DNA from: Butyrivibrio sp. AC2005
GTDB taxonomy: Bacteria > Bacillota > Clostridia > Lachnospirales > Lachnospiraceae
Direction: 5' to 3'
Assembly (NCBI RefSeq): GCF_000424145.1
Contig: NZ_KE384137.1
Coordinates: 62,001-126,000, forward strand
DNA: 64,000 bases
Shown: piece after piece, positions 47,606 to 55,775 of the stretch
How the letters are laid out: every line of letters begins with the position of its first letter
How positions within the stretch are numbered: the first letter of the stretch is position 1
Translations under genes and position numbers: made by a program
The notes under the pieces: generated by a model
The model's database searches: none
Told to the model about the DNA's origin: nothing
The model's input: the letters and a program-made list of their open reading frames with translations, nothing else

Positions 47606-47661
47606 ACTCTTTTTGTTTTTAGAATAATAACTTAGAATATATGTATTGGGGAATATATTTT

Positions 47662-49587
47662 ATGGGGGTTACTGTGGGCGTAAATATTAAAAACAGAAAA
47701 AGGAATATAGGAGTATTTTTTAACTGTTCAGAGGAGAGATTTCAAAAAAGTTTTTGCCATTCACTGTCAACTGCAGCAAGAAAAAAGGATTATAATCTAA
47801 TTTTCTTTATGACTTTTGAGGTAATAGATGATGAGAGTGACTTCAATAGGATGAATGAGAAAATGATAAAGTTTGCGCCTATTGAGTATCTCGATGCAAT
47901 TATCATTGCCTATGATACTTTTGACAGGGAGTCAATCAGACAGAAGCTGGAAGATGAGATAAGGAAGAGAGCGTCCTGCCCTGTAATAAGCTTTAGGGAA
48001 AAATATAAAGATTTTTACAGTATTACAAGTAATGCCAATGACGCCATAAGCAATATGGTAAATCATCTTGCCGATTATCATCATTGCAATAATATAGCTT
48101 TCATGGCCGGCTATAAGTACCATTATGACAGTAATGAGCGACTTGAGATTTACAAAAAGGCCATGCGTATCAGAGAACTTCCTATCTATGATAATTATAT
48201 TTTTTATGGTGATATGTGGAGGTTTAAGGGAGAGGAAGCTTTCAGATATTTCTTTTCAGATCCGGAGCATATCCCGGATGCAGTAATATGCGCTAATGAC
48301 CATATGGCAAGAGCGCTTTGTAATGCTGCAATCGAGCATGGACTTGATATTCCTTCAGACCTTATTGTTACGGGTGTCGATGACATTGCAGAAGCGGTTG
48401 AATATCATCCTACGCTAACAACTGTCAGTGTTGATATAGAAAACATGACGATGCGCACTATAGAGCTGGCGGATAAGCTGATTCACAAACAATATATAAA
48501 ATCGGTCAATATTGTTCCGGCAAAAATAATGTACAGGGAAAGCTGTGGCTGTAATGGAGAGGAAGTGGTAGTTCCATATCAGCAGCAGTTAAATCAGTAT
48601 TATGAGAGAATGAGTCACTTGCTGGGGCAGCCCCATAATCAGACTATGTTCCAGATAGGACTTGATGGCTGCGACACACTAGAAGAGCTGCTTGGTACTA
48701 TTCAGAAGAACATTGATGTAGTAATGAAGCATAAAGCCTTCTTTATTTTTCTGTCAGGAAGAGATAATGAAAATGGCGGAAGGGATTTTAAAGAAGACAT
48801 TACCGATGAAGTTGAGCAGATATTTGGCTATAGAGATGGGGAAAGATTGCCGGAATATACAAGAAAGATCAGGACAGATACTTCTCAACTGTTGGATGAA
48901 TTTGAAAATGATAAGCCAAGAACAGTGTATTTTTCACTTCTTCATGACAGTACGAATTGTCTTGGGTTTGTTGTTTCCGAATTTGCCAGCTTAAATGATA
49001 CTGTTGACCAGTATTATTTTGATTATTTGCTGAAAATATCACTTGCCCTGAACAAGCATTATATGGCTGCAGAGTTGAAGTATCTCCTTGAACAGTCAAA
49101 GCAAAAGAGTCTTACCGATTTTATGACAAAACTGAGTAACAGGAGAGGCTTTGACCAGTTTGTATCGCAAAACATTAAGGAGTGGATTAAAGCAGCTGAA
49201 GAAATAGCTTTTATGACACTTGATATTGACGGGCTAAAGAAAATAAATGATGAGCTTGGCCATGAGGCCGGGGATCTTGCCATATCGGCTGCCGCAAAAA
49301 TTATCAGGAAGAGATGTCCTGATAATGGTTTGTGTGCAAGAATAGGCGGGGATGAGTTCCTGATGATATTCCCTGTTAAAAAAACATCACCGGATGAAAT
49401 TGCTTCTAAAATTGAAGCAGGCATGAAAAAAAGAAATATATCCGGAGCTTTTCCGTTTAAGCTTAGCGTATCTATCGGCTGGTACAAGACAATTATGGAA
49501 AAAGGAACCAGGATAGAGGATTGTCTTGCCGAAAGCGATCAGAAAATGTATGAAATAAAGAAAATTCACCATGGAGATGAATTTTAA
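47662..49587 (+). CDS. Periplasmic-binding-protein-fold sensor fused to GGDEF diguanylate cyclase
   Basis: A 641-residue protein without signal peptide or membrane segment. Residues about 15-290 are a LacI/GalR-type sugar-binding fold (PDAVICANDHMARALCNAAI, then GVDDIAEAVEYHPTLTTVSV), here without the HTH. A middle region (about 300-470) includes a coiled coil and a possible GAF-like domain. The C-terminal GGDEF domain (about 480-641) is complete: LTDFMTKLSNRRGFDQF, DIDGLKKINDELGHEAGD and ARIGGDEFLMIF. It should make c-di-GMP in response to a cytoplasmic ligand, perhaps a sugar. The start is uncertain: ATG 47641, ATG 47662 or GTG 47674. Confidence 0.87.
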   Translation: MGVTVGVNIKNRKRNIGVFFNCSEERFQKSFCHSLSTAARKKDYNLIFFMTFEVIDDESDFNRMNEKMIKFAPIEYLDAIIIAYDTFDRESIRQKLEDEIRKRASCPVISFREKYKDFYSITSNANDAISNMVNHLADYHHCNNIAFMAGYKYHYDSNERLEIYKKAMRIRELPIYDNYIFYGDMWRFKGEEAFRYFFSDPEHIPDAVICANDHMARALCNAAIEHGLDIPSDLIVTGVDDIAEAVEYHPTLTTVSVDIENMTMRTIELADKLIHKQYIKSVNIVPAKIMYRESCGCNGEEVVVPYQQQLNQYYERMSHLLGQPHNQTMFQIGLDGCDTLEELLGTIQKNIDVVMKHKAFFIFLSGRDNENGGRDFKEDITDEVEQIFGYRDGERLPEYTRKIRTDTSQLLDEFENDKPRTVYFSLLHDSTNCLGFVVSEFASLNDTVDQYYFDYLLKISLALNKHYMAAELKYLLEQSKQKSLTDFMTKLSNRRGFDQFVSQNIKEWIKAAEEIAFMTLDIDGLKKINDELGHEAGDLAISAAAKIIRKRCPDNGLCARIGGDEFLMIFPVKKTSPDEIASKIEAGMKKRNISGAFPFKLSVSIGWYKTIMEKGTRIEDCLAESDQKMYEIKKIHHGDEF

Positions 49588-49633: not shown

Positions 49634-49678
49634 AATATATGTTTAATATAGAAAATGCTTTTCAGGGACGGTATTATT

Positions 49679-50368
49679 ATGGATATTGGTGGACTTTTAA
49701 AAGAGCTGTTACTAGAGGATAAAGTGCTTATACACTTTGACTTTATGAACGGCTTTTTTGATATTAATAAGTCAGTTGTTGTGACCTGGGGTGTAATCGC
49801 TGTATTGGCCCTTACTCTGATTTTCTTAACAAGTAATATGAAGCTTCATGACATAAGGACAAAACAGCTTGTTGCAGAATCGATTGTAGACGGACTTCGA
49901 GGGATAACGGGAGGAATGCTCGGAGAGGAAGGCTATAAATACAGAGATTTTATGGCGGTTGTATTAGTGTTTATCGGAGCATCCAATCTGGTTGGGCTTT
50001 TCGGATTTACTCCGGCTACTATGGATCTGAACGTTACATTGGCTCTTGCACTTACAAGTATTGTACTTGTTGAGGCTGCCGGCATTATAGAAAAGGGATT
50101 CGGAAAATGGCTTAAGGGCTTTTCACAGCCAATGGCTATTGTTACTCCGATGAATATCTTAGAGCTTGCAATAAGACCTCTTTCTCTTTGCATGCGACTT
50201 TTCGGTAATGTCATCGGTGCGACGGTTATTATGGAACTGCTCAAAATGGCTGTTCCGGTAGTTGTTCCTGCCGCGTTTTCGGTTTATTTTGATATTTTTG
50301 ATGGCTTGATACAGGCATATGTATTTGTATTCCTTACATCTCTGTATATAAAGGAAGCCATTGAATAA
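49679..50368 (+). CDS. atpB: F1Fo ATP synthase subunit a
   Basis: The 229-residue membrane subunit that forms the ion half-channels against the c-ring. The essential Arg lies in LSLCMRLFGNVIGA (about residue 175), and ELAIRPLSL precedes it. About five or six membrane segments are visible. ATG 49679 (AGGG upstream) is preferred to ATG 49655, which has no ribosome site. It is the first gene of the operon; no atpI is seen before it. Confidence 0.93.
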   Translation: MDIGGLLKELLLEDKVLIHFDFMNGFFDINKSVVVTWGVIAVLALTLIFLTSNMKLHDIRTKQLVAESIVDGLRGITGGMLGEEGYKYRDFMAVVLVFIGASNLVGLFGFTPATMDLNVTLALALTSIVLVEAAGIIEKGFGKWLKGFSQPMAIVTPMNILELAIRPLSLCMRLFGNVIGATVIMELLKMAVPVVVPAAFSVYFDIFDGLIQAYVFVFLTSLYIKEAIE

Positions 50369-50407
50369 TAAATGAGGTTTTTAAGAATAATTAAGGAGGA
50401 AATATAT

Positions 50408-50623
50408 ATGAGTTTAACAGCAATAGGTGCTGCGATTGCAGCATTTACAGGAATTGGAGCAGGTATCGGTATTGGTATAGCTACAGCCAAGGCAGTTGAT
50501 GCCGTTGCAAGACAGCCTGAAGCAGATGGAAAGATCATGAAGCTCCTGCTTCTTGGTTGTGCACTTGCAGAGGCTACAGCTATTTATGGTTTCGTTGTAT
50601 CTATCATGATACTATTTACCTGA
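50408..50623 (+). CDS. atpE: F1Fo ATP synthase subunit c
   Basis: A 71-residue two-helix proteolipid with the RQPE polar loop (35-38) and the ion-binding Glu55 in ALAEATAIYG. Compared with the well known Na+ type (Ilyobacter), the Gln32 position is Ile22, the Ser66 position is Ala56 and Val63 is Leu53, with Tyr kept. Loss of the Na+ side ligands points to a proton-type ring (inference). AAGGAGGA seven bases before ATG 50408 fixes the start, against an upstream in-frame ATG at 50372. Confidence 0.95.
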   Translation: MSLTAIGAAIAAFTGIGAGIGIGIATAKAVDAVARQPEADGKIMKLLLLGCALAEATAIYGFVVSIMILFT

Positions 50624-50645
50624 TATTTTTGGGAGGATTACTACA

Positions 50646-51137
50646 GTGTTAAGTATCAGCATAATGAACATTGTATATACAGTGATTAATCTTTTAATCC
50701 TCTATGTGGTGTTCAGATTATTTTTGTTTAAAAGAGTTGATGCAGTTCTTCAAAAAAGGCGAGAAGAAATTGAGCAGGCCACAGCTGAAGCTGTTAAGAA
50801 AGAAAAGGAAGCAGAAAATTTCAAGGAGAGCTATGCTAAAAAGCTTCAGGATGTTGGCAAAGAATGCGATGAAATGGTTGCTAAATCCAAGAAGGATGGC
50901 TATGACGAGTATGATCGCATTATAAATGATGCTAAGGAAAAGGCTGAGCAGATAATTATTGAAGCTAAGCATAATGCTCAGATTGAGGCTCAGCGTGAGA
51001 AGGATGCATATGTTTCAGAACTCACAGATCTTGTTGTGCATGCTGCTAATAAGATTGCTGTTTCCAAGCACGATGAGGAGACTGACAAGGAGCTTTATAA
51101 CAAGTTTATCTTTGAGGCTATTGAGAAAAGCGAATAA
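50646..51137 (+). CDS. atpF: F1Fo ATP synthase subunit b
   Basis: A 163-residue peripheral stalk subunit: one N-terminal membrane helix (about 5-25, NIVYTVINLLILYVVFRLFL) and a long charged helix to the end. It starts at GTG 50646 behind GGAGG. The length is that of a normal b, so the missing delta domain is not fused here (as it is in mycobacteria). Only 23 bases separate it from atpA, leaving no room for an atpH gene. Confidence 0.93.
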   Translation: MLSISIMNIVYTVINLLILYVVFRLFLFKRVDAVLQKRREEIEQATAEAVKKEKEAENFKESYAKKLQDVGKECDEMVAKSKKDGYDEYDRIINDAKEKAEQIIIEAKHNAQIEAQREKDAYVSELTDLVVHAANKIAVSKHDEETDKELYNKFIFEAIEKSE

Positions 51138-51160
51138 CTGATATCAGAGGTTTGATATTT

Positions 51161-52960
51161 ATGATAAACGAAAACAAAGCAAAGCTTCGCTATTCTTCTG
51201 TTGCTCCATCAGATTCACAGGCTGAACAGATTAAGAAGGCGCTGGCAAAAAAGTTCAATAACCCTGATCTTGAGCTAGAAATTATTCATGATCCTAAAGT
51301 TAGCGGTGGTTTCGTAGTAAATTATGGCAACTTTGAGTATGACTGGAGTGATGAAGGTCGTACAAGACAGCTGAAGGAGCTTATTGAACTAACTAAAAAA
51401 AGACAAAATACAAGTGCAGAGAATCTTGTTTCCATAATCAGAGACAGGGTTAATAATTTTGACCTTAAGGCTGAAGGAAAAGAGGTCGGCAGAACTATAT
51501 GGGTTGGTGACGGAATTGCTAATGTTGTCGGTATTGATCATGCTTTTTATGGTGAAATAGTACGTTTTGAAGATGGAACCAAAGGCATGGTACAGGATAT
51601 ACGTGATGACCATATCGGTGTAATTCTGTTCGGCAGCGACGAAGGAATCAGACAGGGAAGCAGGTGTGTGCGTACTTACAAACAGGCAGGTATTCCTGTT
51701 GGAGAGGCCTTCGTTGGAAGAGTAATTGACGCTCTTGGTAATCCGATAGATGGCAAGGAAGAGATAAAGACAGATGTTTATCGTCCTGTTGAAGAACCGG
51801 CTCCCGGTATAGTTGAGAGGCGTTCTGTTAATGAACCCCTTGAAACAGGTATATTGTCGATTGATACAATGTTTCCTATCGGTCGTGGTCAGCGTGAGCT
51901 TATTATCGGCGACAGACAGACAGGTAAGACATCAATTGCAATGGATGCAATTCTGAACCAAAAGGGTAAGGATGTAATATGTATCTATGTTGCGATTGGT
52001 CAGAAAGCAAGTACTATAGCTAAACTTATAAATACTCTTAAGGAAGCCGGTGCCATGGGATATTCCATAATAGTTGCATCAACAGCATCTGACAGTGCAC
52101 CGCTTCAGTATATTGCTCCGTATGCAGGTACAGCCATGGCTGAATACTTTATGCTTATGGGAAAGGATGTTCTTATTGTTTATGATGACCTTTCCAAACA
52201 TGCGGTTGCTTACAGAGCCTTATCGCTGCTGCTTGAAAGATCTCCAGGAAGAGAAGCTTATCCCGGAGATGTATTCTACCTGCATTCGAGACTTCTTGAG
52301 AGATCAAGTAAGCTTTCAAGTGATCTTGGAGGAGGCTCAATTACTGCGCTTCCCATAATTGAAACTCAGGCAGGAGATGTTTCTGCATATATTCCTACAA
52401 ATGTTATTTCAATCACTGACGGACAGATTTTCCTTGAATCAGATCTGTTCTTCGAAGGAATGAGACCTGCTGTTAATGTAGGTTTGTCTGTATCACGTGT
52501 TGGTAGTGCTGCCCAGACGAAGGCTATGAAGAAGGCTGCGGGAAGTATTCGTATTGATCTTGCTCAGTATAGAGAGATGGCTGTATTTACACAGTTTGCA
52601 TCTGATCTTGATGAAACAACCAAGAATCAGCTTCGACATGGAAGCGTACTTATGGAACTTTTAAAACAGCCTTTGGGTAGGCCGTATGCAATGTATGAGC
52701 AGGTAATTCTTCTTGTTTGTGCAAACAGCGGAAAACTTGATTTTGTTCCGGTTAATCAGGTTAAGGATTACAAGAATAAACTTCTTAAGTATTTTGAAGA
52801 TAATAAGAAGGATATTATTGAGGACCTTACCAAGTCCAGGGATTTATCAGATGCAACCAGGAAGGCTATTCTTGAAACTGCTGATGCGTTCGAGAAGATC
52901 AACAATGAAGCTTTAAAGCAGGAACTAAAAAACAAAAGGAAAAGACTGGTTTTAGATTAA
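51161..52960 (+). CDS. atpA: F1Fo ATP synthase alpha subunit with fused N-terminal delta (OSCP C-terminal) domain
   Basis: A 599-residue alpha, about 95 residues longer than usual. Residues 8-75 match the C-terminal domain of delta/OSCP: LRYSSVAPSDSQAEQIKKAL (compare SAAALSEQQ... of E. coli delta), HDPKVSGGFVVNYGNFEYDW (compare [20 protein letters not shown]) and a closing helix RTRQLKELIEL. From about 85 a standard alpha begins (ENLVSIIRDRVNNF, then VGDGIANVVGID). Walker A GDRQTGKT is near 250-257. AGAGG lies ten bases before ATG 51161, and the frame is unbroken. Normally one delta holds the top of F1; three alphas would bring three copies of this domain. Confidence 0.93.
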   Translation: MINENKAKLRYSSVAPSDSQAEQIKKALAKKFNNPDLELEIIHDPKVSGGFVVNYGNFEYDWSDEGRTRQLKELIELTKKRQNTSAENLVSIIRDRVNNFDLKAEGKEVGRTIWVGDGIANVVGIDHAFYGEIVRFEDGTKGMVQDIRDDHIGVILFGSDEGIRQGSRCVRTYKQAGIPVGEAFVGRVIDALGNPIDGKEEIKTDVYRPVEEPAPGIVERRSVNEPLETGILSIDTMFPIGRGQRELIIGDRQTGKTSIAMDAILNQKGKDVICIYVAIGQKASTIAKLINTLKEAGAMGYSIIVASTASDSAPLQYIAPYAGTAMAEYFMLMGKDVLIVYDDLSKHAVAYRALSLLLERSPGREAYPGDVFYLHSRLLERSSKLSSDLGGGSITALPIIETQAGDVSAYIPTNVISITDGQIFLESDLFFEGMRPAVNVGLSVSRVGSAAQTKAMKKAAGSIRIDLAQYREMAVFTQFASDLDETTKNQLRHGSVLMELLKQPLGRPYAMYEQVILLVCANSGKLDFVPVNQVKDYKNKLLKYFEDNKKDIIEDLTKSRDLSDATRKAILETADAFEKINNEALKQELKNKRKRLVLD

Positions 52961-52971
52961 GGTGATTTTCA

Positions 52972-53904
52972 GTGGCAAATATTAAAGAAATTCGCGATCG
53001 AATCGGAAGTATTCGCGACACAATGAAAATTACAAATGCGATGTATATGATATCATCGAACAAGCTTAGGAAGGCTAAGAAACAGCTTGCAGATACTGAG
53101 CCTTATTTCTATGCGCTACAGGCAATGATAGCAAGAGTTTCCAGACATATTCCGGATGATGTAGATGATATTTTTCTTAAGACAACGGAGGATATTCCCT
53201 TTGAACACAGAGCTAAGGGATATCTTGTCCTTACCTCTGACAAGGGACTTGCAGGTGCGTTTAATCATAACGTCGTAAGAATGGCAGAAGAACATATAAA
53301 ACAGAACAATAAGCTTAAAAATTATAAGCTATATGTTGTCGGTGAGTTTGGAAGGCATTATTTTACGTCTCTTGGACTGAAGATTGATGAAAACTTCCGA
53401 TACACTGCACAGAATCCTAACCTTGACAGAGCCAGAGATATTGCATCCATTCTTATTGATGATTATACAAACGGAGTAATAGACGAGGTGTATGTTGTTT
53501 ACACTTCCATGAAGAACTCTTTGACTAGTGAAGTGAAGATGGAGAAGATACTTCCGCTTGATATAATCGAAAATGCAAGAAACAGATATAGAATAATCGA
53601 TGCATATAACGAAGAGTTTGTTTTTGAGCCCAGTCCAAAGGCTATTCTTGATAATATAGTTCCGAATTTTATATGCGGATTTATTTACGGTGCTTTGGTT
53701 GAAACATTTTGTTCTGAGCAAAACTCCAGAATGATGGCTATGGACAACGCAAATAAAAATGCCACCTCGATGATAGGCGAACTGCAAAAACAGTACAACA
53801 GACAAAGGCAGGCAGCTATAACGCAGGAAATTACGGAGGTTGCAAGTGGTGCCAAGGCGCTTAAGAGAGCCAAGGCAGCAAAAGCTGCAAAGCAGAAAAA
53901 ATAA
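52972..53904 (+). CDS. atpG: F1Fo ATP synthase gamma subunit with basic C-terminal extension
   Basis: A 310-residue rotor subunit (E. coli has 287). The N-terminus IKEIRDRIGSIRDTMKITNA and the C-terminal helix RQAAITQEITEVASGAKAL are canonical; after the usual end there are 13 more residues, KRAKAAKAAKQKK. The gamma C-terminus lies at the top of the rotor, so this tail would protrude towards the alpha N-termini, where the fused delta domains are. GTG 52972 follows AAGGTGA at 52959-52965. Confidence 0.93.
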   Translation: MANIKEIRDRIGSIRDTMKITNAMYMISSNKLRKAKKQLADTEPYFYALQAMIARVSRHIPDDVDDIFLKTTEDIPFEHRAKGYLVLTSDKGLAGAFNHNVVRMAEEHIKQNNKLKNYKLYVVGEFGRHYFTSLGLKIDENFRYTAQNPNLDRARDIASILIDDYTNGVIDEVYVVYTSMKNSLTSEVKMEKILPLDIIENARNRYRIIDAYNEEFVFEPSPKAILDNIVPNFICGFIYGALVETFCSEQNSRMMAMDNANKNATSMIGELQKQYNRQRQAAITQEITEVASGAKALKRAKAAKAAKQKK

Positions 53905-55323
<1,419 letters not shown>

Positions 55324-55349
55324 TGCCTTTGATGTAAAGGAGATTTAAA

Positions 55350-55775
55350 GTGCCACAGGAAAGGAAGACCTTTAGATTACAGGTTATGTCAATAAATGGT
55401 GTCTTCTTTGATGACAGAGCTTCTGAAATAATCTTGCCTTGCATAGATGGTGAGTTTGCCATACTTGCCAATCATGAAGAGATGGTGCTGGCCATTTATA
55501 ATGGTAAGATGATAATAAGGGATGCCATCGGAGACAAAATAGAGGCTATTGTTGGCATTGGCTCTGCTCAGATTGCCAATAACAGAGTAATTGTGCTTGT
55601 TGATACATGTGAAAAACCTGAAGATATCGACAGGATAAGAGCGCAGAGAGCTCTGGAGAGAGCAGAAGAAGAAATGAGACAAAATAATTCAATTAAGGAA
55701 TACTACTCAGCTCAGGCTGCTATGGCGAGGGCATTATCCCGTCTTAAGAACTCAGCTGATTATGGTATTGATTGA
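55350..55775 (+). CDS. atpC: F1Fo ATP synthase epsilon subunit
   Basis: A 141-residue epsilon: an N-terminal beta-sandwich (about 1-90, with DGEFAILANHEEMVLAI) and a C-terminal pair of helices (about 95-135) that in this family can inhibit hydrolysis. GTG 55350 follows AAGGAGAT. It is the last ATP synthase gene; no terminator is obvious before the acyltransferase gene, which begins 37 bases later. Confidence 0.94.
   Translation: MPQERKTFRLQVMSINGVFFDDRASEIILPCIDGEFAILANHEEMVLAIYNGKMIIRDAIGDKIEAIVGIGSAQIANNRVIVLVDTCEKPEDIDRIRAQRALERAEEEMRQNNSIKEYYSAQAAMARALSRLKNSADYGID

Follow-up and report, generated by a model that had tools for sequence, protein, structure and literature searches.

A δ C-terminal domain fused to the F-ATPase α subunit of Butyrivibrio sp. 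AC2005 and its relatives: a candidate natural enzyme with more than one stalk

In the textbook view, an F-ATPase has a single side stalk, and the c-ring alone fixes its H+/ATP ratio. The window analyzed here, a 64,000-nucleotide stretch of DNA from Butyrivibrio sp. AC2005 (contig NZ_KE384137.1, positions 62,001 to 126,000), contains an F-ATPase operon in which a δ C-terminal domain stands at the front of α, and this raises the question of whether a natural enzyme can depart from that rule. In the laboratory, the rule has been broken by removing the δ N-domain and fusing the C-domain to α, and Ueno et al. 2025, who did so, conjectured that the same may happen in nature, on the strength of one bacterium and two database entries (PMC12229609). 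The preliminary description of the window took such an arrangement to be undescribed. That view was mistaken, as the same paper built an enzyme of this kind, solved its structure (Protein Data Bank [PDB] ID: 9jc1), and named natural fusions in its Discussion (Acidaminococcus fermentans, UniProt G4Q3K6 and A0A1I2C5T3). The string "Lachnospir" is absent from its main text. An earlier survey reports, in the part bearing on this subject, δ-less gene sets in Clostridia and a b/δ fusion (PMC5709465). No other account of such fusions was found in the openly licensed PMC literature, which most subscription papers lie outside. Relative to the literature searched, the new elements are the breadth of the fusion in Lachnospiraceae, full-δ–α fusions as likely intermediates, a probable repeated loss of the N-domain, a b–δCTD–α chain, and the pairing in Butyrivibrio with an ordinary, Na+-looking enzyme.

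The fused α subunit and its operon

The operon has the order a–c–b–[δCTD–α]–γ–β–ε at 49655–55775, and 23 bases separate the end of atpF (51137, stop included) from the ATG of the fused α at 51161 (Table 1); the coordinates confirm the gene order and the gap given in the preliminary description. No atpH is present between atpF and atpA, and the operon thus departs from the canonical layout with a separate δ. The b subunit (163 residues) gave no OSCP match at E ≤ 1, and hence is not a b–δ fusion of the mycobacterial type. An operon lacking atpH is also characteristic of N-ATPases. The window α scored 585.6 bits against TIGR03324, below the cut-off of 750.5 that would mark an N-ATPase, and N-ATPase operons, unlike this one, begin with atpD and atpC (as described in PMC5376962). 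Immediately upstream of the operon is a gene whose product combines a LacI-type sugar-binding domain with a GGDEF domain (window 47641–49587).

Table 1 Features of the F-ATPase operon in window coordinates
Feature	Position	Strand	Basis and remarks
atpB, subunit a	49655..50368	+	PF00119, E 5.8e-39
atpE, subunit c	50372..50623	+	Likely start ATG 50408; PF00137; aligned to 4bem c subunits
atpF, subunit b	50646..51137	+	163 codons from GTG; sole b gene in operon; PF00430, E 1.8e-17
atpA, fused	51161..52960	+	599 aa: δ C-domain, short linker, complete α
δ/OSCP C-terminal domain (residues 6–81), without preceding N-domain	51176..51403	+	PF00213; AF2 model
Short linker (residues 82–85) and retained α N-terminal helix (86–98)	51404..51454	+	Model secondary structure; without in-frame start codon
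atpG, γ	52972..53904	+	PF00231, E 1.3e-95
atpD, β	53917..55323	+	TIGR01039 above cut-off
atpC, ε, both domains kept	55350..55775	+	TIGR01216 above cut-off; PF02823, PF00401

About 80 extra N-terminal residues of α had been assigned to the δ C-domain in the preliminary description, which proposed a search against the OSCP/δ family as a check. The assignment was borne out. Residues 12–73 match positions 109–170 of the 172 positions of Pfam OSCP (PF00213), above the curated cut-off (E = 1.1e-7 with the whole protein and 9.4e-9 with the first 100 residues), and the part of the profile that covers the δ N-domain is unmatched. Matches to nine NCBIfam δ models in these first 100 residues stay below the respective curated cut-offs. 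The α part is a full atpA product (TIGR00962, 750.3 bits versus a cut-off of 484.45). In a template-free AF2 model (mean pLDDT 79, pTM 0.77), residues 6–81 form a compact β–α–β–β–β–α domain (block pLDDT 73–87), followed by a short gap and the α N-terminal helix at 86–98; a low-confidence stretch spans residues 405–447. The best PDB match to a profile of the fused region was 9jc1_I (E = 1.5e-9), and residues 10–570 of the window protein align to 8–569 of this chain. The sole PDB α aligning from residue 10 was that of 9jc1, the others starting at residue 79 or later (60 listed of 68 PDB αs). In a fold search with the window model, the three 9jc1 chains took ranks 1–3 of 994 matches at E ≤ 0.001 (E 1.8e-60 to 1.3e-57, 573–575 columns, TM 0.77–0.81 of the query), and the other 47 among the matches listed aligned over at most 509 columns. 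As modeled, the window protein matches 9jc1 in fold and in the order of its domains.

As the gene reads, each α subunit produced from it has a δ C-domain in front, and the operon encodes no δ N-domain. The mycobacterial b–δ fusion keeps the δ N-domain. It resembles the window protein in joining δ to another stator subunit, but δ is placed on b and not on α, and its profile match to the fused region is weak (PDB IDs 9vkp and 7jg5, E = 0.026 and 0.61). The fusion of A. fermentans, likened here by the paper's description (PMC12229609), has the δ C-domain on α and lacks the N-domain, as in the window.

The window genome also holds a second complete operon on contig G000:C8 (locus L004), with the order a–c–b–δ–α–γ–β–ε and an unfused α. 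Its δ, of 179 residues, is a complete atpH product (E = 1.2e-41). The preliminary claim that atpH is lacking thus holds for the window operon and fails for the genome, and the C8 gene is the very observation, a complete atpH elsewhere, that the description had said would refute its reading. Likewise, the claim that the enzyme has lost the δ N-domain stands for the fusion and the operon, but a full δ is encoded elsewhere in the same genome. Two b genes scored above the cut-off, one for each operon. This canonical bacterial F-ATPase equals the window operon in subunits and order apart from its separate full δ, unfused α, and Na+-like c subunit.

Distribution and evolution of the fusion

At 95% across the first 101 residues, the fused α of Butyrivibrio sp. 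XPD2002 is the nearest to that of the window. From 97 confirmed stretches, 80 named loci were kept, and their form was judged by frame length. α lies in the same frame in all of them except the broken L134; 22 of the 80 have the C-domain only (L134 included), and 58 have about 90 or more codons ahead, as for a full δ. Ten of the 11 Butyrivibrio-titled loci are C-only (L131–L140), nine of them intact, with six of the nine from named strains, and the eleventh, from B. fibrisolvens 16/4 (L155), has the full-δ form. In L134 (Butyrivibrio sp. VCD2006), the fused α frame stops after 177 codons, at about 5006, as a pseudogene or a sequencing error. The full-δ form was found in Pseudobutyrivibrio loci, strain ATCC 27753 (titled Lactobacillus rogosae), Eubacterium uniforme, and Agathobacter ruminis. 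The full-δ–α frame of E. uniforme ATCC 35992 (L188) has 758 codons, roughly 65–85 more than its relatives.

Other operons of the family were chosen from search hits, so that the counts of forms are not frequencies: 28 besides the window are C-only in the window's order, 12 are full-δ fusions, and in seven (one cut by a contig end) a δ of the window subtype is still separate. The Lachnospiraceae survey proposed at the outset thereby returned the fusion, without an operon atpH, in 28 other C-only operons. Beyond the family, unbroken fused frames of 601–659 codons occur in at least 10 genomes of at least seven other families in a sample of 398 genomes taken across the phylum. Among the matches listed, nine of those ten frames have 601–641 codons, below the full-δ frames seen here (669 or more), and one further genome has a fused frame cut by a contig end.

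The α tree (57 rows) was rooted at its midpoint, and its bootstrap had not settled. In it, the canonical α of the window genome groups with four other canonical αs (98/80), and αs of the window's kind make up a separate clade (100/99). C-only and full-δ forms are intermixed. The C-only label changes 10 times on the best tree and 8–10 times in 200 bootstrap trees (5–95%), and at least two changes are forced by well-supported branches. This mixing and the forced changes point to a probable repeated loss of the N-domain. The recurrence of the fusion in one family suggests a path in which δ was fused first and the N-domain dropped later, with the full-δ–α fusions as likely evolutionary intermediates. 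A relaxed constraint on the N-domain of the full-δ–α fusions was considered and is not claimed: in these fusions, identity is 0.45 in the N-domain versus 0.61 in the C-domain at an α identity of 0.76–0.82 (918 pairs, 69 sequences). The corresponding values for unfused δ are 0.39 versus 0.47, from just six pairs of five sequences (L079, which is cut, and L126, whose start is uncertain, were left out).

Several loci have unusual architectures. L080:3656–5992 (G068:C33) encodes a single b–δCTD–α chain of 778 codons, whose PF00430, PF00213, and α domains are all above the cut-off. The PF00213 match extends back to profile position 54, across the apparent C-terminal helix of b, and a profile of the δ N-domain gave no match in this chain. 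The model of the chain (pTM 0.49, with low-confidence linkers) contains a folded δ C-domain and a long b helix and is mute on the docking of b. The b sequences were aligned in 33 b rows with six fused α rows (alignment A5), which replaced an alignment (A4) that had placed b sequences on α columns. Besides a normal b, L117 (G071) and L118 (G375) encode a δCTD–α above the cut-off and another, long-tailed b-like protein. The latter lies between the normal b and δCTD–α (L118:6482–7381, minus strand, 299 codons; L117:3484–4443, plus strand, 319 codons). Two tandem δ-C-like repeats seen by eye in these tails were rejected for lack of support from Pfam OSCP (E = 0.64 in G375; none at E ≤ 10 in L117). 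L115 (G065:C15) combines a b–δCTD fusion (OSCP E = 6.9e-12) with a free α. The γ and β of L115 share one 766-codon frame, which may be a sequencing error. L117/L118 and L115 (on a long branch) group with the canonical clade on the α tree, which suggests that these fusions arose separately.

Number of stalks

Here, we propose that the window enzyme is a natural F-ATPase that can carry more than one stalk, at least in part, with a higher proton cost per ATP and the ability to work at a low proton-motive force; by analogy with the engineered enzyme, we give this reading a probability of about 60%. In this second F-ATPase of the Butyrivibrio, δ is reduced to its b-binding C-domain and joined to the front of every α. 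In the proposed mechanism, because the N-domain would no longer occupy the threefold axis, each α could dock its own b2 stalk with its a subunit. More than one stalk would raise the number of protons used per ATP and so permit ATP synthesis at a low proton-motive force.

Ueno et al. deleted δ residues 2–104 of the Bacillus PS3 FoF1 and fused the rest to α (δΔN–α), and they argued that the δ N-domain limits the enzyme to one stalk (PMC12229609). In the engineered enzyme (9jc1), the numbers of b2 stalks and of a subunits reached three. Particles on the grid had 0, 1, 2, and 3 stalks in 15, 51, 26, and 8% of cases (34% with two or three), gel ratios indicated about two stalks per F1, H+/ATP was 5.8 versus 3.0, and the threshold proton-motive force was halved, as reported in the same paper. 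The window enzyme shares with it a δ C-domain joined to α by a short linker, the missing N-domain, and, by its operon, the lack of another δ. It differs in being natural, in having a δ C-domain of the EYDWS subtype, and in keeping the ε C-terminal domain (PF00401), which was removed from the engineered enzyme. The preliminary description had counted three copies of the δ C-domain per F1, of which one or two could hold b; the copy on each α is upheld, and as many as three b2 stalks, each with an a subunit, can bind in the engineered enzyme. The b–δCTD–α chain of L080 supports the multi-stalk reading, since it holds the sole b above the cut-off in the G068 genome; an internal ATG of this gene with a fair ribosome site, from which free α might be made, weighs against it. 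The argument is not applicable to the full-δ–α relatives, in which three N-domains are made and one would fit the axis; these may be single-stalk intermediates. Because full-length δ is also fused to α in many relatives, the fusion by itself does not argue for many stalks. A broader picture, in which multi-stalk F-ATPases are natural and common in gut Lachnospiraceae, with the whole δ fused, the N-domain lost several times, one lineage with a b–δCTD–α chain, and in Butyrivibrio an H+-driven low-gradient enzyme beside a Na+-driven one, is put at slightly below even odds.

The best of the alternatives, which we consider rather unlikely, is an ordinary single-stalk enzyme, in which one (or two) of the three C-domains would hold b and the fusion would replace the lost grip of the N-domain on F1. 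One outer stalk is a stated rule for F-type enzymes (PMC5376962), the spare copies of full-δ–α fusions would idle, and three stalks were present in just 8% of the engineered particles; however, the engineered enzyme had about two stalks per F1 by gel and a doubled H+/ATP (PMC12229609). The N-domain loss that seems recurrent on the α tree also speaks for the multi-stalk reading over a single stalk, although a mere tether would allow it too.

It is far less plausible that the δ of the second operon complements this F1 in trans with an N-domain or a whole δ. A separate full δ is encoded in the window genome and in 17 of 18 further genomes (17 of the named loci and G207), part of which carry full-δ fusions, but the genome of KH1T2 (L179) has a fused copy only and no separate full δ. 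In a sample of 397 family genomes, α was found in 325 and a δ match in 325. From these, 22 with one α and only a weak δ match were picked by eye, together with two for comparison, and one of the 22 (G222) proved to have a full-δ fusion. No δ N-domain was found with PF00213 and the N-domain profile in any of the 21 single-α genomes left, a number that is a lower bound. Seventeen of the 21 have plain δCTD–α fusions and four have odd forms; completeness is at least 90% in 18. Whole PF00213, searched to E 10, returned the ATPase locus and weak matches (E 0.011 or worse) in the 21. Such weak matches in the 24 genomes, mostly in long frames, were not accepted as δ (that of G256 C157 was translated). 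The profile, made from the N-domains of 26 relatives, gave no match in the ATPase loci of the 21 and two chance-level matches elsewhere (E = 0.74 and 0.92). Its positive controls were four genomes with E ≤ 1e-30, all with rows in the profile; among unseen controls, it found the ordinary δs of G000 (1.2e-6) and G008 (2.1e-5) and missed the ordinary second δs of G017 and G122, each of which has two PF00213 matches. The profile is thus not fully sensitive to ordinary δs, and whole PF00213 fills this gap. The result in the 21 genomes indicates that the N-domain loss is real and argues against complementation. Candidate relics of the N-domain upstream of the fusions (PF00213 read through stops in G062, G137, and G142) were discarded, as their translations contain no recognizable N-domain.

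Slightly less credible still is a mixed F1, in which internal initiation would yield fused and unfused α from one gene and fewer fused copies per F1. In L080, an in-frame ATG at codon 276, inside the N-terminal helix of the α part, has a ribosome-site energy of −7.7, which 2.4% of 2367 internal codons reach, and free α could be made there. However, the window gene has no in-frame ATG, GTG, or TTG over a stretch that begins just under 60 codons ahead of the first position of the α match and ends 24 codons past it, so that ordinary internal initiation there cannot give unfused α; the same holds for L057 over that stretch, and no shared internal start was seen among the 45 loci listed (44 fused). 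The ribosome-site energy of the window ATG is −6.5 versus a median of −7.5 (227 control genes, best start in the first 40 codons). Finally, an assembly or annotation artefact or a pseudogene, of which the stop inside the α frame of the L134 assembly might be an example, is refuted by nine other Butyrivibrio loci and 28 further family operons in which the C-only frame is intact.

Ion type and the paired enzymes of Butyrivibrio

The c subunits were compared at the Gln and Thr sites, which we take to be Na+ ligands. The window c subunit has Ile at the position of Gln in the Acetobacterium woodii c-ring, and the residue following the ion-binding Glu is Ala instead of Thr (AEAT). The C8 c subunit is nearest to Na+-type c-rings; it shares AETTGIY with the A. 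woodii c2 chain, whose Gln is replaced by Glu. Gln or Glu occupies the ligand-Gln position in five of the five canonical c subunits compared, and neither was seen at that position in the window's own clade, in a list read by eye. By the c-subunit motif, the window enzyme would be of the H+ type, and the ordinary second F-ATPase of Butyrivibrio looks Na+-driven. Butyrivibrio would then pair the fused, H+-driven enzyme with an ordinary single-stalk F-ATPase that looks Na+-driven. Such a pair is in keeping with the Ech and Rnf pumps of Butyrivibrio, which are predicted to pump H+, and H+ or Na+, respectively (PMC4478896). That paper scored every F0F1 subunit as present in all 62 rumen butyrivibrios, and its passages on these subunits make no mention of a fusion. 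Since cultured Butyrivibrio strains have the C-only form beside an ordinary enzyme and Pseudobutyrivibrio keeps the N-domain in its fusion, the two genera offer a natural system in which to test whether stalk number and H+/ATP depend on the N-domain. C-only fusions also occur in a separate clade (L051, L056, L058–L063, L114, and L120–L123), whose c subunits have 111–138 residues with extra N-terminal sequence; in L051, L056, and L058–L063, the a subunit is weakly similar to that of the window.
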